Positions 318-28,565 of a DNA stretch of 35,201 nt are shown piece after piece. The translations under genes and the position numbers were made by a program. The notes under the pieces were generated by a model. That model did not search any database, was not told where the DNA came from, and worked only from the letters and a program-made list of their open reading frames with translations. This DNA is from Paracoccaceae bacterium (GTDB lineage: Bacteria > Pseudomonadota > Alphaproteobacteria > Rhodobacterales > Rhodobacteraceae), in contig JAQWUC010000054.1 of assembly GCA_029242355.1 (NCBI GenBank), positions 1 to 35,201 on the forward strand, written 5' to 3'. The stretch's first letter is position 1. Each line of letters opens with the position of its first letter.

Positions 318-1511
318 TTAAGATGAAAGATCGTAAGCTCGCTCACCGTGAACGGTAATATCTAACCCATCAAATTCAGTCTCCTTATCAACTCTCATTT
401 TAAGAAAAAATCCTAACGATTTTATAATAACAACTGTTACAAAAATTGTATAAAGAGCGACAACAATTAAAGACACAATTTGAGATATCCAACTTGATCC
501 GTTTTCAAAACCTAAAAATGATAAAAAAGGGAGCATCACTATTCCAAAAATACCACCAATTCCATGAACTGCAAAAACGTCTAATGTGTCATCTATCTTC
601 AGTACATTGCGCACGATGTTAACTGCTTCTTGACATAGGACGCCCGCTATACCGCCAATAATCACTGCTTCAAGTGGCCCAACAAAACCAGAAGCCGGAG
701 TTATAGAAGCTAATCCGGCTATAGTACCTGTAACCAGACCAACCAAAGAAGATTTACCATACTTTATTCTTTCCCATCCAGCCCAGGTTAACGAGGCAGT
801 AGCCGCAGATAAGTGCGTTACTGTCAGAGCCATAGCCGCACCAGCATCGGCTGCTAATTGAGATCCTCCGTTAAATCCAAACCAACCAACCCAAAGAAGT
901 GCTGCACCAATCATAACAAAAGTAGGATTATGGGGTGGTTTAGTAAGGTCTGATCGTGGTCCTAAAAAATAAGCAATAATAAGTGCCGCTATGCCAGCCG
1001 TTTCATGAACCACGATACCTCCTGCAAAGTCAAAAACCGGGACATCGAAAAGTGAACCATCTGATAGAATTCCGCCGCCCCACACCCAATGCACAATCGG
1101 CGAATACACTAAGCACATCCATAGACCTGCAAAAGAAAGAATAAAAACGAATGAAATTCGTTCAACAAATGCACCAACTATCAACGCGGGTGTTATTACA
1201 GCAAACGTCATTTGAAATGCAAAAAACAAAATCTCAGGGAGAGTACCAGAAACATTTTCAGGATCCAAATGAATTAAAAACGCTTTTTCAAATCCACCCC
1301 AAAAAGAATTCTGGTTTCCAAATGCAATGGAATAGCCAAAAGCAAACCACAGTAGGCTCATTAAACACGCTATAGTATAGGTTTGCATAAAAACACTTAA
1401 AACATTTCTTGATCGTACGAGTCCGCCATAAAACAGAGCTAAACCAGGCAATGTCATCAAAAGTACTAACGTTGTTGCGACTAGTATCCAAGCTGTGTCT
1501 GCACCATTCAT
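318..1511 (-). CDS. amtB: Ammonium transporter, Amt family
   Basis: Channel-type ammonium transporter of the inner membrane (Amt/MEP/Rh family), conducting ammonium for assimilation by glutamine synthetase or glutamate dehydrogenase. Visible family marks are the GLALFYGGLVRSRN segment after the first membrane helix, the FDFAGGIVVHETAG stretch carrying the conserved Asp and the first pore histidine, and AVHGIGGIFG carrying the second. About eleven hydrophobic segments fit the family. The ORF track opens 19 codons earlier, but I prefer the ATG at 1511 (protein begins MNGADTAWIL), because AAGGAAG lies just upstream of it and the extra residues look like read-through of the leader. That gives 397 residues. 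There is no separate signal peptide; helix 1 follows directly. Unusually for bacteria, no glnK adjoins it; the only PII gene in the window is 25 kb away. TAA stop. Function is very likely. Confidence 0.95.
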   Translation of the reverse strand: MNGADTAWILVATTLVLLMTLPGLALFYGGLVRSRNVLSVFMQTYTIACLMSLLWFAFGYSIAFGNQNSFWGGFEKAFLIHLDPENVSGTLPEILFFAFQMTFAVITPALIVGAFVERISFVFILSFAGLWMCLVYSPIVHWVWGGGILSDGSLFDVPVFDFAGGIVVHETAGIAALIIAYFLGPRSDLTKPPHNPTFVMIGAALLWVGWFGFNGGSQLAADAGAAMALTVTHLSAATASLTWAGWERIKYGKSSLVGLVTGTIAGLASITPASGFVGPLEAVIIGGIAGVLCQEAVNIVRNVLKIDDTLDVFAVHGIGGIFGIVMLPFLSFLGFENGSSWISQIVSLIVVALYTIFVTVVIIKSLGFFLKMRVDKETEFDGLDITVHGERAYDLSS

Positions 1512-1852
1512 TTTCACTTCCTTATCTATCATGTTACATGCGTCTTGAGATGTAAGTTCTAAACACAAGACGCAACAAGCAAGTAAAAAAATTACAAGTT
1601 CATGTACCCATTTGCTTAAATTTTGATCTTTTTTTTACAAAATGCAAAAAAAATAACCAGATTCAAACTACCGTGTTAGATTTACGCATGTATTTTATTA
1701 ATGATTATAAAATATAAATGATTACACATTCGAAAATTTGTTAAAATTTGCAATTGAACAGTATTCACACCAAAGCTAAACTCTGGAAACGCGATCGGCT
1801 TAGTTTGCAAATTGTAACGTCGAGAAATATCGAATATCGGCAAACCAGAACC

Positions 1853-2673
1853 AAGCATTGCATTAAAAAACCACATCATAGCATTTGTGGTTAGAACTGG
1901 TTATTCACGAGTTATAAAGTGTCCACTGTCTAAGACTAAAATAACTTCTAAACCTGGTAAATATTTTTCTAACCCAAAACAATATTTTACGGGTTACCTA
2001 GGATCAAATTCTCCTCGAATGTATAATATTGGCATTGTGAATTTACTTAAATTAACTTTTTTGCTTTTAAGTATCCTTAAAATAAACGGGAACAGCATCG
2101 GCGACACCTTCATAAGCAAATTCACTTATAATTTCTTTCAATTCCGTTTCATCAGGTAATAACCCTTTTTTACAAGAGTTTTCAAACAAACTCTAACATA
2201 AGCTTCCCTTTTACTCATTAACTTTGAGGCTTTTTCGGGGTTTAATGAATTTCATTGATGATGTAAGGAATTTCTTGGATCATAATTATGAAGTGACAAA
2301 CAAGACCACACATATAGCTCCACACGATGAGAAATTTGATTTACAATATTATCACTAATGGCAACACCACAATCATGTCTAGCTAATCGAAAATTTATAA
2401 CACCAATCATATCTAAAAGATCAATAACTTGAGAGGTAACCTTATTCATCGAATAATCTCTCTCACTTTTATCAGACTGCCCGTAACCTTTCAAATCAAT
2501 AGCTAATACTTTAAATTGTGTTGTAAGTTTGGGTATCTGATGCTTCCAGCATTTCCAGCTTTCGGGAATACCATGAAGAATAACTACGGGCCCACCCTCT
2601 CCTGCTTCAACCCAATATCATTTTAACCCTTTAAGGTCTTATAATGATGTTTAAATTTAAAATCACTGCTCAT
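1853..2673 (-). pseudogene. Decayed alpha/beta hydrolase (epoxide hydrolase-like)
   Basis: Reading the minus strand from the ATG at 2673 gives MSSDFKFKHHYKTLKG then a TAA stop at 2623-2625. In a shifted frame the homology resumes as WVEAGEGGPVVILHGIPESW (the HG oxyanion region), then KGYGQSDKSERDYSMNK and FRLARHDCGVAIS, where HDCG stands for the nucleophile-elbow motif usually seen as GHDWG. Further on come MPILYIRGEFDP and LEVILVLDSGHFITRE, the latter with the catalytic histidine, followed by TAA at 1901-1903 where a Gln codon is expected. Several stops and at least one frame change show that the gene is dead. The order of motifs matches the family over a full-length span, so the whole gene decayed in place. 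ORF-track entries 1682..1879, 1887..2159 and 2252..2494 are pieces of it or its antisense. Confidence 0.85.
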
Positions 2674-4696: not shown

Positions 4697-6118
4697 ATGG
4701 CAGGGACTGAATTTCTTAAATCGATTGAAACTAATTTTAAAAATGCGACAGAGGCCCTTCAAAAAAGTGAATTTAAGGACTCCATAACACCTGATTTAGC
4801 ACACCAAATTATGATGGCGAATGCAACATACGTCGTACGTTTTGCAGTGAGGTTGCGAGGTACCGTACATACATTTACAGGGTATCGATCAGTGCATTCT
4901 GACCATTTCGAACCAGTAAAAGGCGGAATAAGGTACGACTTAGCAGTAAATCAAGAGGAAGTAGAAGCTCTTGCAGCCTTGATGACCTATAAGTGTGCTT
5001 TAGTTGAAGTGCCTTTCGGTGGATCAAAAGGTGGCTTAATTATAAACGTGAATGATTGGTCCGAAGAAGAATTAGAGCGCATAACGCGACGGTTCACCCA
5101 AGAACTTGCTAAGAGAGATCTCATCCATCCGTCGCAAAATGTCCCAGCACCGGATGTTGGAACTGGCGAAAGGGAAATGGCATGGATGGCAGATGAATTC
5201 CGTAGGTTAAATCCAACTGATCTGAATGCATGGGCCTGTGTTACAGGAAAACCTGTGAGTAAAGGTGGCATTTCAGGAAGAACAGAAGCAACTGGTCGAG
5301 GTGTTCAATACGCCCTTCGTGCTTTTTTTGATCACCCAAACGACGTAAAGCGAACGGGATTAACACCAGGCTTGAGCGGAAAGAGGGTAATTATCCAAGG
5401 CCTTGGTAACGTTGGCTTTCACGCTGCTCTGTTTCTATCCACCGAAGATCATTGTGTAATAACTCATGTATTAGAACGAGATGGTACGATAATAGACCCA
5501 AATGGAATTGATATTCTCGCTCTTAAAGAATATCTTTCTGCAGAACGAACCATAAAAGGATACAAAGGATTTACTCAATCCGGTCTCGAGGCATTAGAAG
5601 ACGATGCGGATATTCTTATCCCTGCTGCTATGGAACTTGTTATAACGGATAATAATGCAGAGCGTATTAAAGCCCCTTTGATAATAGAAGCTGCCAACGG
5701 TCCAATATCAGCAGATGCTGATGTAATACTAAATGATAGAAACATTGTAATTATACCAGATCTGTATGCTAATGCTGGAGGTGTAACCGTAAGCTATTTT
5801 GAGTGGATTAAAAATCTTAGTAGAATTAGATTGGGGCGACTGCAAAGAAGAGCTCAAGAAAATCAAATTTCAATTCTTGTGGACGGCATTGAAAAGATGA
5901 CAGGTAAGGTTTTTCCAGAAGATAATCTGAAGAAATCGTTAGATGGTGGTTCGGAGTTAGATCTAGTCCGATCCGGCCTAGAAGATACCATGCGCAACAC
6001 TTATAATGTCATTAGCGAGGTGTGGAATTCTGACAAAAAGTCGTTAAGTCTGAGAACAGCCGCTATGATGGTGGCACTCAGACGTGTGGCCCAAAGTTAC
6101 TCGACTCTGGGTATCTAA
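4697..6118 (+). CDS. gdhA: Glutamate dehydrogenase (Glu/Leu/Phe/Val dehydrogenase family)
   Basis: Interconverts glutamate and 2-oxoglutarate plus ammonium with NAD(P). The dimerisation/catalytic domain shows PVKGGIRYD (about 73-81), the substrate lysine in MTYKCALVEVPFGGSKGG (K99, K111) and the catalytic aspartate in PAPDVGTGE (D153). The Rossmann domain has GLGNVG (235-240), followed by IIEAANGP and PDLYANAGGVTVSYFEW. At 473 residues it is slightly longer than the common 410-450-residue form, with extra sequence at the C-terminus (LRTAAMMVALRRVAQSYSTLGI), where eukaryote-like members also have a tail. It is a single transcription unit, divergent from the GMC gene across about 270 bp. The upstream ribosome binding site is weak (GGTGA). 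Coenzyme preference and whether it works in the catabolic direction are not decidable here. Confidence 0.94.
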   Translation: MAGTEFLKSIETNFKNATEALQKSEFKDSITPDLAHQIMMANATYVVRFAVRLRGTVHTFTGYRSVHSDHFEPVKGGIRYDLAVNQEEVEALAALMTYKCALVEVPFGGSKGGLIINVNDWSEEELERITRRFTQELAKRDLIHPSQNVPAPDVGTGEREMAWMADEFRRLNPTDLNAWACVTGKPVSKGGISGRTEATGRGVQYALRAFFDHPNDVKRTGLTPGLSGKRVIIQGLGNVGFHAALFLSTEDHCVITHVLERDGTIIDPNGIDILALKEYLSAERTIKGYKGFTQSGLEALEDDADILIPAAMELVITDNNAERIKAPLIIEAANGPISADADVILNDRNIVIIPDLYANAGGVTVSYFEWIKNLSRIRLGRLQRRAQENQISILVDGIEKMTGKVFPEDNLKKSLDGGSELDLVRSGLEDTMRNTYNVISEVWNSDKKSLSLRTAAMMVALRRVAQSYSTLGI

Positions 6119-12563: not shown

Positions 12564-13391
12564 CTAATAATTTCTTTTTTCAACGGCACCATTATACAAA
12601 ATATCACCCCACTCGTGGTTTACTTTATTTCTAATCTTAATTTGACTTGTTTCCATATTTATGCTCGGCCTTTCAAGTAAATCAAAATTATTGTGTTCAT
12701 CCGTACCTCTTACAAGTTGAGCAGAAGTTCTGCCTAACGTCTGTTTTATATCAGTTCGCATATAAGTTTGAATTGCAAATCCAATCCTTCGATAATCGCT
12801 TTTGTTAGGCTGAGATCCGTGAATAACCGTCGGACAATGCAACGAACATTGTCCAGGCCTCAATGGTGTAAGAACCGCCTTTGTTTCGTCAACAGCATCA
12901 ATTTTTTGGCCTCGCGTTAAAATATTATTTTTTCCATATGTGTCGATATGTTCATGCATATACTTATGACTACCTGGAATCATAGACATACAACCGCTTA
13001 GCGCATTAGATTCCGTTAAAGCCATCCAAGAGGTGACACCAACATCTTCGGACAGGCCCATGTATTTACCATCCTGATGCCAACTAACAAAGCCTTCATC
13101 CTTAGGTTCTTTTATAAATAAAACAGTATGATATGCTAAGATGCTGATACCAATTAGATCCTCAACAGCATCAAGCAACCGTTTATTATGTACAATCTCA
13201 TCAAGAAATTTAAAAACTAGATGAGGATTATTCCTTGCCGTTCCTTCAAACGCCTCAGGCCAAGTTTTTTCAGCATCTTCAAGTTCATCTTTTATCTGCA
13301 AACACTCTTCCACTGAAAGTATATTTAAGGGAGATACAAACCCATCTTTTTCAAAGTTATTAATTTGTTTTTGTGTTAAAAACTTTGGCAA
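12564..13391 (-). CDS. Phytanoyl-CoA dioxygenase (PhyH) family Fe(II)/2-oxoglutarate oxygenase
   Basis: Cupin-fold oxygenase that hydroxylates an unknown substrate using Fe(II), O2 and 2-oxoglutarate. The iron facial triad is visible as H105 and D107 in SWHQDGKYMG and H191 in VIHGSQPNKS; the nearby arginine in YRRIGFAIQTY is placed to bind 2-oxoglutarate. WMALTESNALSGCMSMIPGSHK is the typical core strand. At 275 residues it fits the PhyH family, whose bacterial members include ectoine hydroxylase and many small-molecule tailoring enzymes. The start codon is TTG and the codon just before it is TAA, so no upstream extension is possible, and no ATG occurs near the N-terminus. The start of homology (FLTQKQINNFEKDGFVSP) agrees with this start. 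TAG stop. No neighbour points to a substrate. Confidence 0.87.
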   Translation of the reverse strand: MPKFLTQKQINNFEKDGFVSPLNILSVEECLQIKDELEDAEKTWPEAFEGTARNNPHLVFKFLDEIVHNKRLLDAVEDLIGISILAYHTVLFIKEPKDEGFVSWHQDGKYMGLSEDVGVTSWMALTESNALSGCMSMIPGSHKYMHEHIDTYGKNNILTRGQKIDAVDETKAVLTPLRPGQCSLHCPTVIHGSQPNKSDYRRIGFAIQTYMRTDIKQTLGRTSAQLVRGTDEHNNFDLLERPSINMETSQIKIRNKVNHEWGDILYNGAVEKRNY

Positions 13392-20062: not shown

Positions 20063-20153
20063 TATATAACTTTTACAGGAAATAATATGCAAATCGCCTC
20101 AGCGGTGATTGCGTGTTAGAACCAACAAATTCATTTGTTTCTGGGAGGAAATC

Positions 20154-21371
20154 ATGATTAATAAATTAATTTTAGGAATAGGAACATCGTTAGTTCTTTC
20201 CTTAATGGGATTAACGACTACCGCATCTGCAAAAGTAGAAGGTGATACAATAACGCTTGGATCGTCCATCTCCTTAACTGGTAAGTACGCTACAAACGGA
20301 CTACATACTCAAAGAGGGTATGATTATGCTGTAGACGTGATTAATAACTCAGGTGGAGTAAAGGTAGGTGGCAAGACCTATAAACTCGCTGTTAAATACT
20401 ATGACGATGAGTCGACACCAGCGCGAGGAGCTCAACTTGCCGAACGACTTATCCAACAGGATGGAATCGAATTTATGCTTGGACCATACAGTTCGGGAAT
20501 GACAAAAGCTATTGCGCCAGTCTCAGAAAAATTTGGGGTGCCAATGGTAGAGGCAGAGGGAGCATCTAGGTCTCTTTTTACTCAGGGCTATAAATATCTT
20601 TTCGCGGTGCTTTCAACTTCTGAGCAGTATTTATCAACTGCCATAGAGCTAGCGGCACAATCATCCTCAGACCCTTCATCAGTAAGAGTTGCGATGGCCT
20701 TCGAAAGCGACCCTTTCTCGATGGATGTTAGAGCAGGAGTAGTTGACGCAATAAATAAATATGGCATGAAAACAGTTATTGATGACCAATTACCAGCTGA
20801 TCTTTCGGACATGTCAACTACTTTAACTAAAGTAAAGGCCTTGAAGCCAGATATACTCATCGTATCAGGTCATTCTAAAGGTGCTGCAACAGCTGCTCGA
20901 CAAATAAATGAGATGAAAATCAACTTACCAATGATTGCAATGACACATTGCGAGGCAGCAAAAGTGCAAGAAAAATTTCCTAAGGCGGCCAATGGTTTTC
21001 TTTGCCCAACACAGTGGGTTGAGACTCTATCAAAATCAGATGCCATGTTTGGAACTGCCGCAGAATGGAACGCAGGGTTTAAAAAAGCTCACCCAAGTTA
21101 TTCGTCTGTGCCTTACCAATCTGCCCAGGCTTCAGCAGCGGTTTATGTCTTCAAGGAAGCGTTTGAAGCAGCAAACAACTTTGATCAAGATGATGTAAGA
21201 GACGCGATTTCTGGAGTTGAAATGGAGACATTTTATGGAGATATAAAGTTTTCTGATGCGGGTAATAATATTGCAAAGCCAATGTTTATGCGGCAGATTG
21301 ACTCTAGTGGAAGCTATAACTTAGTTGAATCGTCAAAAGATATGACCTTTCCAAGAAACGTTTCATACTAA
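20154..21371 (+). CDS. ABC importer periplasmic binding protein, branched-chain amino acid/amide type (Peripla_BP_6)
   Basis: High-affinity solute receptor for the LivHMGF-type importer that follows. The start is the ATG at 20154, not the track's earlier start: GGGAGG lies six bases upstream, and the product then opens with a clean signal peptide, MINKLILGIGTSLVLSLMG, cut after TASA. The mature protein opens GDTITLGSSISLTGKYATNG, the classic type I binding-protein first strand, and continues with YYDDESTPARGAQLAERLI and MLGPYSSGMTKAIAPVSEKF. Length is 405 residues including the signal. A strong intrinsic terminator follows directly, as expected where the receptor must outnumber the membrane parts. 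Ligand specificity (amino acids, amides, urea or others) cannot be read from sequence. Confidence 0.92.
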   Translation: MINKLILGIGTSLVLSLMGLTTTASAKVEGDTITLGSSISLTGKYATNGLHTQRGYDYAVDVINNSGGVKVGGKTYKLAVKYYDDESTPARGAQLAERLIQQDGIEFMLGPYSSGMTKAIAPVSEKFGVPMVEAEGASRSLFTQGYKYLFAVLSTSEQYLSTAIELAAQSSSDPSSVRVAMAFESDPFSMDVRAGVVDAINKYGMKTVIDDQLPADLSDMSTTLTKVKALKPDILIVSGHSKGAATAARQINEMKINLPMIAMTHCEAAKVQEKFPKAANGFLCPTQWVETLSKSDAMFGTAAEWNAGFKKAHPSYSSVPYQSAQASAAVYVFKEAFEAANNFDQDDVRDAISGVEMETFYGDIKFSDAGNNIAKPMFMRQIDSSGSYNLVESSKDMTFPRNVSY

Positions 21372-21391
21372 AACATTTTAAACGCCTATCA

Positions 21392-21426
21392 GAGGAAAGC
21401 AACTTATTGCTTTCCTCCTTTTTTTT
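21392..21426 (+). terminator. Intrinsic terminator/attenuator between the binding protein and permease genes
   Basis: GAGGAAAGCAA and TTGCTTTCCTC form a perfect 11-bp stem around a CTTA tetraloop, followed by C and eight T residues. This is a textbook rho-independent terminator. It sits 20 bp after the binding-protein stop and 27 bp before the permease start. Partial read-through would give high receptor and low permease expression. Confidence 0.92.
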
Positions 21427-21452
21427 AATTTAATTTACTACTGGAATTAAAT

Positions 21453-22358
21453 ATGCTTGATAATATTCAGCTACTCTTCGTATGGGCACCTATAATAAAC
21501 GTACAAATCATTTTAGAAGGTATTTTTCTTGGAGCAGTCTTTGCTTTAAGCGCTTATGGTCTCGCGCTTGTTTGGGGTGTCATGAATATAAAAAATCTCG
21601 CCCAGGGTGATTTTGTGATCATGGGCGGATATCTATCCTTAGCATTTAGTCAGTACAATCTTAGTATTTTTTTAATATTACCGCTCGTTATGATCATAAT
21701 GTTTTTTTACGGTTTAATCGTTTATCGCCTTATGATACGGCGCGTAATCGATCAAGATATGTTTACGTCTCTTCTTGCAACGTTTGGACTCTCTCTCTTA
21801 ATGCAACAGGTTATGAACTTAATTTGGGGTCCAGAAGTACAAATCATTGATTTAGATTTTCCTGTCTATGACGCGTTTGATGGATTTGTAACTATACCTT
21901 CAATTAAAATCATCTCATTAATACTTGCCGGAATGCTCTCCTTAGGAATTGTTCTTTTTATGAAAAAATCAAGAACGGGACAAGCGATTCGAGCTACAGC
22001 ACAGGATCCACGAGCAGCCAGAGTTCTTGGAATTGATACTGATAAAATTTATGAATTCACATTCTCACTAAATTCAGCCATCTGTGGGGCGGCCGGGGTG
22101 TTTGTATCAGTGATTTGGGTGCTTCAACCCTTTTATGGTATAACATATTCAGTGCGATCATTCGCTATAGTAACAGCAGCAGGACTCGGGAACTTGCCTG
22201 CAGTAATAACTGCAGGTTTTGGGATTGGACTTTTCGAAAAATATGTTGGAGCAATAATAGGAACTGCCTACGAAGTAGCAGCACCGGTCTCGATGTTATT
22301 GATCGTTCTCGTTTTCAGACAAATTAGTATGAAAAAGAATAGGCAGGCCGTAAAATGA
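21453..22358 (+). CDS. livH: ABC importer permease, LivH family
   Basis: First membrane subunit of the branched-chain amino acid-type ABC importer. It has about eight hydrophobic helices in 301 residues. Family marks are LEGIFLGAVFALSAYGLALVWGVMNIKNLAQGDFVIMGGY near the N-terminus and the coupling-helix region FMKKSRTGQAIRATAQDPRAARVLGIDTDKIYEFTF, where the EAA-like loop meets the ATPases. The stop codon overlaps the livM start by four bases (ATGA), so the two subunits are translated together. The ATG is the first in frame and lies just beyond the terminator hairpin. The symbol marks the family; the solute is not established. Confidence 0.92.
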   Translation: MLDNIQLLFVWAPIINVQIILEGIFLGAVFALSAYGLALVWGVMNIKNLAQGDFVIMGGYLSLAFSQYNLSIFLILPLVMIIMFFYGLIVYRLMIRRVIDQDMFTSLLATFGLSLLMQQVMNLIWGPEVQIIDLDFPVYDAFDGFVTIPSIKIISLILAGMLSLGIVLFMKKSRTGQAIRATAQDPRAARVLGIDTDKIYEFTFSLNSAICGAAGVFVSVIWVLQPFYGITYSVRSFAIVTAAGLGNLPAVITAGFGIGLFEKYVGAIIGTAYEVAAPVSMLLIVLVFRQISMKKNRQAVK

Positions 22359-23410
22359 CTACTAAAAAAACTATTCTCACATATACGGGTCTTGGCTTAT
22401 TCGGCATATTAGGACCGTTTTTATTCCCAGCTTACACATTATCAATTGCGTACTTATGGATGATGGTCCTGATGGCCTCAACTTGGGATATCTTAGGAGG
22501 TCAAATGGGTTATAATTCGCTTGGAAACATAACTTTTTTTGGAATTGGTATGTACGTCTCAGCGGTTGTTCAAATTTCAGTTTTTTATCCGGGAGGTGTA
22601 GCAGAATATACCTCTGCAATGGGATCGATAAAACCTGAATTTTCTAATAATCAGTATTTTACTGGCCTATATCTTGGTATTTTAGCTGCAGGTATAATCG
22701 CTATGCTGTTCTCTCTTGTGTTTGGATCTTTCATGTTTGGACTAAGAGGGCCCTATTTCGCGATAGGCTCACTGGGTCTTGCGATTGCAGCGGCGGAGAT
22801 AACTACTACCATTGATTATGTCGGCGGCGCCTCAGGTATATCCATGCCATTATTTCCAGGCGACATAGAATTCCGTTCTGTATTTTTTTATGTTTTGTGC
22901 TTTTTGATAACCTTAACGGCACATTTTTTATTACGCTGGCTTTTTTCCACGCAGTTTGGCCTTGCTATAAATGCTATTAGAGACGACGAAGACAAAGCTG
23001 AGGCTATGGGGATCCCCACCAGAATATATAAACAAATAGGATGGGGCATAACCGCATTCTTTATGGGAGCAATGGGCGCAGTAGCCGGTAACATGGCTGG
23101 ATTTATTGACAAAGAGGTAGCATATCCTATTCCAACTTTTGGAATATTTATGGTGGCTATGGTTCTATTGGGTGGGAAAGGTACACTTTGGGGCCCAGTT
23201 CTTGGTGCAATAATCTTTCATGTTATAAAAGAAACTACTTGGACTTACCTACTTGGTTGGCAATGGGTTGCACTGGGGTTAATACTCATCGTAAATATTG
23301 TTTATTTTCAACAGGGTCTAATGGGTTGGCTGCAAAGCCGCTACCCTGAAATGTTTGGAATTGTAGTAGATAAAACAAATTTGCAAACCAAAGAACAAAG
23401 CAAGGCCTAA
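22355..23410 (+). CDS. livM: ABC importer permease, LivM family
   Basis: Second membrane subunit, pairing with LivH. It has 351 residues and about nine to ten hydrophobic segments. Typical family segments are WDILGGQMGYNSLGNITFFGIGMYVSA, FGLRGPYFAIGSLGLAIAAAEI and the cytoplasmic coupling loop STQFGLAINAIRDDEDKAEAMGIPTRIYKQIGW, followed by MAGFIDKEVAYPIPTFGIFMVAMVLLGGKGTLWGPVLGA. The start overlaps the livH stop (ATGA), and the ATPase gene follows after two bases. The C-terminal tail, after the last helix, is about 35 residues of hydrophilic sequence in the cytoplasm. The subunit looks intact and functional. Confidence 0.92.
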   Translation: MTTKKTILTYTGLGLFGILGPFLFPAYTLSIAYLWMMVLMASTWDILGGQMGYNSLGNITFFGIGMYVSAVVQISVFYPGGVAEYTSAMGSIKPEFSNNQYFTGLYLGILAAGIIAMLFSLVFGSFMFGLRGPYFAIGSLGLAIAAAEITTTIDYVGGASGISMPLFPGDIEFRSVFFYVLCFLITLTAHFLLRWLFSTQFGLAINAIRDDEDKAEAMGIPTRIYKQIGWGITAFFMGAMGAVAGNMAGFIDKEVAYPIPTFGIFMVAMVLLGGKGTLWGPVLGAIIFHVIKETTWTYLLGWQWVALGLILIVNIVYFQQGLMGWLQSRYPEMFGIVVDKTNLQTKEQSKA

Positions 23411-23412
23411 TT

Positions 23413-24156
23413 ATGAATGATATCATTGAAGTTAAAGAAGTTTCAAAGTCATATGGCGGGGTAAAGGCCAACATTGATATATCGATGGTGGTTAAAAAAG
23501 GTTCTATTACTGGAATTATTGGGCCAAACGGTTGTGGTAAAACAACTCTCTTCAACTCAATTGTGGGATATCATCCTATCGATAGCGGTTCCATAAAATT
23601 TGCTGGTAGAGAAATCTCAAAACTATTAGTTGGCGATATTGCAAGGTTAGGTTTATTGAGAACTTTTCAACAAACTCGTATTTACTCTAAAATGAATTGT
23701 GTTGATAACATGCAAATTTCAGTGTCCAGAAGAAAAGATGCCAAATACGGTCTATTTGCCAGTAGAAAAGGTGAGATTAAACAAAAAGCAGAACATTTGT
23801 TGGATTTTGTTGGCCTTTATTCTAAGAGAAATCTTATTTCAGGAGATCTTTCTTTTGGCCAACAAAAGCTTTTAGAATTTGCAATGGCGTTGATGAATGA
23901 ACCCAAAGTCCTTCTTTTAGATGAACCTACAGCAGGTATTAATCCAACATTAATAAATGGGTTAATTGACAGGCTCCAAAAAGCTAATCAAGAATTAGGC
24001 ATAACATTGTGCGTTATCGAACATAATATGCGAGTTATTATGAATTTAGCATCAGACATTTATTGTTTATCTAACGGAAAAATGTTAGCGAGTGGCAAGC
24101 CAAAAGACCTTCAGAATGATCCAAAAGTGATCGATGCATACTTGGGAGGTCATTAA
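23413..24156 (+). CDS. livG: ABC importer ATPase, LivG family
   Basis: One of two ATPases that drive the importer. It has Walker A GPNGCGKTTLFN, the ABC signature LSFGQQKLLEFA, Walker B VLLLDEPTAGI and the switch histidine in CVIEHNMRVI, in 247 residues. The family's insertion after Walker A, which contacts the permease, is present (ARLGLLRTFQQTRIYSKMNCVDNMQIS). The signature has Phe-Gly in place of the usual Gly-Gly, which is frequent in LivG-type subunits. Its stop shares one base with the livF ATG (TAATG). There is no sign of a truncation. Confidence 0.93.
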   Translation: MNDIIEVKEVSKSYGGVKANIDISMVVKKGSITGIIGPNGCGKTTLFNSIVGYHPIDSGSIKFAGREISKLLVGDIARLGLLRTFQQTRIYSKMNCVDNMQISVSRRKDAKYGLFASRKGEIKQKAEHLLDFVGLYSKRNLISGDLSFGQQKLLEFAMALMNEPKVLLLDEPTAGINPTLINGLIDRLQKANQELGITLCVIEHNMRVIMNLASDIYCLSNGKMLASGKPKDLQNDPKVIDAYLGGH

Positions 24157-25052
24157 TGGCTAAAACATCAGATGTAACAAAATTAAATCAAAAGAAAAAT
24201 TTAACAAAAGAAGTTACTGGATACGGTGCCGGTTCTGTAGATTTAGTAATGTCTGTCGATCAAGTTGCAAAGGAGGCCGCATCAATATCTAAAAATGCCC
24301 CTTCAGTCAAAGCTTTGGAATTGTTAACTGACAACCAAACCTTTTTGTCAATTAAAGATTTAAGGGCTGGTTATGGTAAGATGGAAATCTTACATAATTT
24401 CAATCTCCGAATAAGGAAAGGACAGTCTTTATGTCTTATTGGACCCAATGGAGCTGGAAAATCGACTATATTGCACTCTATTTTTGGTTTCACTAATATC
24501 TTCTCCGGTAAAATAGAAATTAATGGCGAAGATGTTACTAATCTCACACCATCACAAAAATTAGCAAAGGCTGGAATAGCCTATATTTTGCAAGATAAAT
24601 CAGTATTTCCTCAAATGACTGTTGAAGAAAATCTGTTAATGGGTGGATTCTTGAAAGGTAAGCCTAAAGAAGCTCAAGAATCGGCCGAAATGGTCTTTGA
24701 TAAGTATTCTCGGCTAGCAGAGCGACGGAACAAACCAGCCGGTGTGCTTTCAGGAGGCGAAAGAAGACTTTTAGAAATCTCTAGAGCTTTGGTAATGCAA
24801 CCAGATGTCCTTCTGGTTGATGAACCCTCTATCGGCCTTGAACCACGGTTTATTGACATGGTTTTCGGTATTCTGAAAGACCTTCAGCAAAAAGATGGAA
24901 AAACAATAATTATGGTTGAACAAAACGCTAAGAAAGGTTTAGCCTTTGCCGATCTTGGGTATGTACTCGTCTCTGGTGAAACTGCGATTGCGGATGAAGG
25001 AAATAAACTTCTTGATAATCCTGATGTTGGCAGGCTTTTTCTAGGTGGTTAA
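24156..25052 (+). CDS. livF: ABC importer ATPase, LivF family, with an N-terminal extension
   Basis: Second ATPase of the importer. The conserved domain starts near residue 64 (FLSIKDLRAGYGKMEILHNF) and shows Walker A GPNGAGKSTIL, signature LSGGERRLLEIS, Walker B VLLVDEPSIGL and the switch His replaced by Gln in IIMVEQNAKK, as is usual for LivF. LivF proteins are normally about 235 residues; this one is 298 because of about 62 extra N-terminal residues (MAKTSDVTKLNQKKNLTKEV..., then VDQVAKEAASISKNAPS). The extension is in frame, begins at the ATG that overlaps the livG stop, and is hydrophilic with a probable helix. No start codon near residue 60 has a better context, so I accept the long form. 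The role of the extension is unknown. Confidence 0.9.
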   Translation: MAKTSDVTKLNQKKNLTKEVTGYGAGSVDLVMSVDQVAKEAASISKNAPSVKALELLTDNQTFLSIKDLRAGYGKMEILHNFNLRIRKGQSLCLIGPNGAGKSTILHSIFGFTNIFSGKIEINGEDVTNLTPSQKLAKAGIAYILQDKSVFPQMTVEENLLMGGFLKGKPKEAQESAEMVFDKYSRLAERRNKPAGVLSGGERRLLEISRALVMQPDVLLVDEPSIGLEPRFIDMVFGILKDLQQKDGKTIIMVEQNAKKGLAFADLGYVLVSGETAIADEGNKLLDNPDVGRLFLGG

Positions 25053-26412: not shown

Positions 26413-27102
<690 letters not shown>

Positions 27103-27155: not shown

Positions 27156-28565
27156 ATGAGTGAGATTAATAAGGTATTAAAGTCAATTAAAGATAACGAA
27201 ATAGAGTATGTGGATATACGATTCACCGACCCTAGAGGGAAGCTTCAACACGTTACTGTCATCGAAGATCAAGTGGATGAAGATTTCCTAAGTGATGGAT
27301 TTATGTTTGATGGCTCATCAATTGCAGGTTGGAAATCAATATAGCAATCTGATATGAAACTAATACCTGACTGTGAATCCGCTTATGTTGATCCCTTCTA
27401 CGCGGAGAAAACATTATGCCTACATTGTAATGTTGTGGAACCAGACACGCTAGAACCATATGGAAGAGATCCACGAGGAACTGCCTTGAAAGCCGAAGAG
27501 TACTTAAAATCTACAGGGATAGGAGACACTGCTTTCTTTGGACCCGAAGCAGAGTTCTTTTTGTTTGATGATGTCCGGTTTTCGAATTCAATGAATAAAG
27601 TTGGCTTTGAAGTAGATGCCACTGATGCGGCGTGGAATACAAATTCTGATTATGAAATGGGAAACATGGGTCATCGCCCAGGAGTGAAAGGTGGATACTT
27701 TCCTGTTAACCCAACTGATGCTGCGCAAGATATTCGCTCCGAAATGCTTTCAACAATGCGACGAATGGGGATGAAGGTTGACAAACATCACCACGAAGTA
27801 GCCTCCTGTCAACATGAACTTGGGTTGATATTTGACTCCCTGACAAAACAAGCTGATGAATTGCAGAAGTATAAATATATTATTCATAATGTAGCTAACG
27901 CTTATGGCAAGAGTGCGACATTTATGCCAAAGCCTGTCGCTGGAGACAATGGGACTGGCATGCATGTAAATATGTCAATTTGGAAGGACGGGAAGCCGTT
28001 ATTTGCGGGAGATAAATACGCTGATTTGTCTGATGATGCATTGTTTTTTATTGGAGGAATACTAAAGCACGCCCCCGCTTTAAATGCGATAACTAACCCG
28101 TCTACTAATTCATATAAAAGGTTAATCCCTGGTTTTGAAGCCCCCGTTTTACGCGCATATTCGGCAAGAAATCGGTCAGGTTGTGTTCGAATACCATGGG
28201 CGGAATCTCCAAAAGCTAAGAGAGTAGAAGCAAGATTTCCAGATCCATCTGCCAACCCGTATCTAGCTTTCTCAGCTCTATTGATGGCGGGATTAGATGG
28301 GATAAAAAACAAAACGGATCCAGGAGAAGCCTCCGATAAGGATCTTTATGATTTACCCCCAGAGCAATTAGAAGGGATACCAACTGTCTGTGGCAGTCTC
28401 CGGGAAGCTCTCGTAGCGTTAGAACACGACCATAATTTTTTGTTAGCTGGCGATGTTTTCACAAGAGATCAACTTAAAGGGTACATGGATTTAAAGTGGG
28501 AAGAGGTACATAACTACGAGCACACGCCTCATCCCATTGAGTATAGTATGTATTACTCTTGCTAA
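27156..28565 (+). pseudogene. glnA: Glutamine synthetase type I, interrupted by one in-frame TAG (codon 63)
   Basis: ATP-dependent ligation of ammonium to glutamate, the dodecameric type I enzyme. The frame from the ATG at 27156 (AGAGG six bases upstream) to TAA spans 470 codons, exactly the length of classical GlnA, with no frameshift. One codon, TAG at 27342-27344, interrupts it between GSSIAGWKSI and QSDMKLIPD. Everything else is well conserved: [97 protein letters not shown] and the adenylylation loop KDLYDLPPE. The track splits the gene into 27111..27344 and 27354..28565. The second part begins with an internal ATG nine bases after the stop. It may be a recent nonsense mutation, a sequencing or assembly error, or a restart site. 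The N-terminal beta-grasp domain would be severed, so activity of the split product is doubtful. Confidence 0.93.

Follow-up and report, generated by a model that had tools for sequence, protein, structure and literature searches.

The window analysed here is the whole 35,201-nucleotide stretch of contig C54 from a draft Rhodobacteraceae genome, and it carries a glnB-glnA pair together with several other genes of nitrogen metabolism (Table 1). The draft comprises 1.73 Mb in 75 contigs and is 61.45% complete, a degree of fragmentation and completeness that suggests a metagenome-assembled origin. On translation, the glnA frame opens with ATG at 27156, closes with TAA at 28563–28565 and is not uninterrupted: as an earlier note on this DNA had claimed, it contains an in-frame TAG, which is the sole stop inside the frame and the only lesion in the gene. 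The same note had credited glnA with the canonical length of 469 sense positions; this holds for the 469-codon frame but not for the sense positions, of which there are 468, the TAG being one of the 469 codons. The stop is thus confirmed as a real observation in the assembled sequence.

Table 1. Coordinates of glnB, glnA, the interrupting codon and nearby nitrogen genes in the window
Feature	Position	Strand	Basis or remark
glnB, P-II nitrogen regulatory protein, 112 aa, intact	26764–27102	+	open frame and profile matches
glnA, type I glutamine synthetase	27156–28565	+	469-codon frame, one interruption
In-frame TAG, glnA codon 63	27342–27344	+	translation; D/E/N in relatives at the same column
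ATG, glnA codon 67, Met of SDMKL, poor restart site	27354–27356	+	9 bases past the TAG
Ammonium transporter	318–1568	-	
Glutamate dehydrogenase	4697–6118	+	
ABC transporter cluster (urea/branched-chain amino acid type)	20109–25052	+	

The part of glnA downstream of the TAG scores 562.7 bits on its own against the TIGR00653 GlnA profile (cut-off 429), and the 62 codons preceding the TAG score 56.5 bits. The whole 469-codon frame aligns end to end, at 92.5% identity, with glnA of the only same-genus genome compared (G001, 2.2 Mb, 96% complete, hereafter the congener). Directly upstream, glnB was found intact, as previously described; it matches NCBIfam P-II models with an E-value of 1e-51, slightly under their curated cut-offs, and is 93.75% identical to its counterpart in the congener. 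In gene length, active-site motifs, adenylylation-loop region and the presence of upstream glnB, the locus conforms to the alphaproteobacterial glnB-glnA order with a type I GlnA (TIGR00653), from which this glnA is set apart by the single TAG that occupies codon 63. Elsewhere in the window, the protein encoded at 12564–13391 on the reverse strand resembles chlorinating enzymes and ectoine hydroxylase weakly, with matches under the cut-off; it is presumably phytanoyl-CoA dioxygenase-like.

Conservation of glnA and of codon 63

Apart from its interruption, glnA is a highly conserved gene. A set of 101 relatives shares 226 invariant columns, of which it retains 225, and it has only four private residues besides codon 63. 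The conserved active-site residues are kept, with the Asp50' loop segment FDGSSIAGW preceding the TAG; the preservation of the active-site motifs and of the adenylylation-loop region, asserted in the earlier note, was borne out, and the match is to type I GlnA. The dN between glnA and its counterpart in the congener is 0.045, within the lowest tenth of 295 genes and similar to that of glnB (0.039), which argues that glnA was fully constrained until the lesion. Decayed pseudogenes combine relaxed constraint with several lesions; glnA has a single lesion and a low dN, and to judge from its sequence there is no sign that it was ever released from selection.

At codon 63, a column of 100 relatives holds Asp in 49, Glu in 47 and Asn in four (GAA 36, GAC 33, GAT 16, GAG 11, AAT 2 and AAC 2), and more distant Alphaproteobacteria carry Asn, His or Gln; the named protein-level relatives belong to the Rhodobacteraceae/Paracoccaceae and to other Alphaproteobacteria. 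The Asn or Glu anticipated at this site is therefore there, but so is Asp, in 49% of the column. No relative examined has a stop at this codon. All of them have a sense codon, an outcome which the earlier note had equated with either an error or a private mutation. GAG, which it named as one base from TAG, is found in 11 of the 100 relatives; the nearest relative, the congener, carries GAT (Asp), which is two changes removed from TAG. A single error at this position would have had to start from another codon, for instance GAG, and this counts against it.

A close glnA match is present in 375 of 397 family genomes sampled. As no other stop occurs among the glnA matches listed from this sample, an in-frame stop in a gene as conserved as glnA is not chance background. 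No relatives turned up in a search of IMG/VR viral contigs, and phage records gave distant glnA/glnK matches only.

Suppression, restart and other glutamine synthetases

One way to reconcile an in-frame TAG with a functional gene is its decoding as an amino acid (by a suppressor tRNA, pyrrolysine or another recoding signal), yielding a full-length glutamine synthetase (GS). The frame is conserved across the TAG and glnA is normally needed, and an in-frame TAG within a conserved frame is what this case has in common with amber suppression and pyrrolysine recoding. It differs from them in having no detected CTA tRNA, no PylS above cut-off and no conservation of the TAG. ARAGORN found no CTA anticodon among the 22 tRNAs of the 61%-complete draft or among the 27 of the congener, so the suppressor tRNA contemplated in the earlier note did not come to light. 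TAG terminates 44 of 244 aligned genes at conserved ends (17 of the 44 end in TAG in both genomes), and RF1 is present and intact in the draft; on the evidence of terminator use and RF1, TAG is neither avoided as a terminator nor reassigned genome-wide. Searches of the incomplete draft for PylS returned sub-cut-off matches only, as they did in 12 of 14 control genomes. Nor does TAG recur at codon 63 in any relative examined (in the family sample, in any of the matches listed). Genome-wide recoding was rejected on the strength of the ordinary TAG terminators, RF1, the absence of PylS matches above cut-off and the lack of a CTA tRNA among those found, and decoding of this particular TAG in any form seems to us highly improbable; nothing points to a new reading of the codon. 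The 22 tRNAs come from an incomplete bin and a suppressor may consequently be encoded in its missing part, but we see only a very slim chance that the TAG is both real and fixed and that full-length GS is made with such a tRNA. Were this so, ammonia assimilation would depend on readthrough.

Translational restart fares no better. The ATG reported nine bases downstream of the TAG is indeed present at 27354, in frame and followed by an intact frame, and initiation there would give an N-terminally shortened GS of 403 residues. This product would lack residues 1–66 and with them FDGSSIAGW, the segment of the Asp50' loop; in GS this loop binds ammonium and deprotonates it, and its Asp is strictly conserved (PMC7948447). 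The stretch upstream of this ATG, GGAAATCAATATAGCAATCTGATATG, has no Shine-Dalgarno sequence at the usual spacing (AGAGGA is found at the true start), and in the aligned relatives the ATG itself corresponds to the usual conserved Met of SDM. That a working enzyme is produced by restart is barely credible.

The TAG could also be a genuine and very recent nonsense mutation, private to the strain or species, which would cut glnA after 62 residues, so that the cell would have to take up glutamine from outside or live on low-level readthrough. In favour of this, the TAG is a clean in-frame stop, the remainder of the gene would have had no time to decay, a real pseudogene lies on the same contig (see below), and the unseen part of the genome, the draft being 61% complete, could encode another source of glutamine. 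Set against this, no other canonical GS is present among the GS homologues found in the draft or in the 96%-complete congener. The search for a second GS, raised in the earlier note, did turn up homologues on contigs C40 and C68, neither of them convincing as a replacement. The one on C40 passes the type III model and has Rhodovulum GmaS (7cql, 603 bits) as its best PDB match; it carries GAGFAGFA in place of the Asp50' motif, with Ala replacing Asp50', and GmaS, which is without Asp50', prefers methylamine. It was rejected as a backup GS for its likeness to GmaS and this replacement. The C68 homologue, which falls below the type III cut-off, lacks the DGSS motif and adjoins a class II glutamine amidotransferase-type gene along with a second gene that we take to be GXGXG-like, was rejected for its score, the missing motif and its amidotransferase-type neighbour. 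Loss of GS activity typically renders bacteria auxotrophic for glutamine (PMC9249168), and since no homologue found looks fit to replace glnA, a real knock-out would probably be a glutamine auxotroph. The recurrence of lone lesions in the draft, a homopolymer indel among them, likewise speaks against a genuine mutation, which we regard as the most serious alternative to an error, possible though on balance unlikely.

Lone lesions in the draft and the origin of the TAG

The frequency of such lesions was estimated by comparing 0.90 Mb of the draft (about half of it) with 0.96 Mb of the congener, covering ~296 orthologous regions and 94,000 codons with the count confined to genes whose ortholog lies in the compared 0.96 Mb. 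Three lone lesions were found in these ~296 genes, or about 1% of genes in the draft: the TAG of glnA, a TGA within a gene for an amidohydrolase and a frameshift within one for a DNA glycosylase. In the opposite direction, with lesions sought in the congener, the comparison gave no convincing one in 294 regions. The amidohydrolase gene is otherwise intact, and its lone TGA (C35:10838; L258) corresponds to Arg in the congener. The frameshift in the AlkA-like glycosylase gene falls in a run of ten A (C36 near 35840; L146 near 15840), which is either a homopolymer error or a slippage site. Several stops near gene starts that were flagged in the survey were taken to lie in translated upstream sequence before the true start and were discarded as lesions. 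At a rate of roughly one lone lesion per 100 genes, the lesion in glnA requires no special mechanism, and the other lone lesions favour an error or a private mutation.

The same window also holds an alpha/beta-hydrolase-like gene (1751–2635, reverse strand) that shares ~69% identity with a gene intact in the congener. It is interrupted in frame by at least five stops, both TGA and TAA, and its central part is degraded and apparently frameshifted. It is a true pseudogene, so this lineage does undergo genuine gene loss, a point that counts against an error in glnA.

An error and a recent knock-out, two of the possibilities listed in the earlier note, both fit the evidence; of the others, suppression is unsupported and restart unlikely. 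We favour, with a probability of roughly 0.6, the explanation that the TAG stems from an error in the sequence or its assembly, or from a minor allele that was taken into the consensus. It is supported by the lone lesion in a gene whose remainder is constrained, by the sense codons in relatives, by the other lesions in the draft and by the use of TAG as a usual stop. On this view the TAG would have arisen in the incomplete draft through an isolated error at the level of the base, or through a minor allele entering the consensus; the base in question would then be unrepresentative of the living population, and the organism itself would carry an ordinary, uninterrupted type I GS. Should the TAG instead be real and fixed, the bacterium would either be without its only canonical GS or read through the TAG, and either would be surprising.

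The main lesson of the case is that a lone stop in a draft genome should be interpreted only once reads support it and lesions have been counted across the genome. The case resembles other lone base-level lesions in draft genomes, with one lesion in an otherwise intact, constrained gene and more elsewhere, and differs from the usual ones in that the gene affected is normally indispensable.
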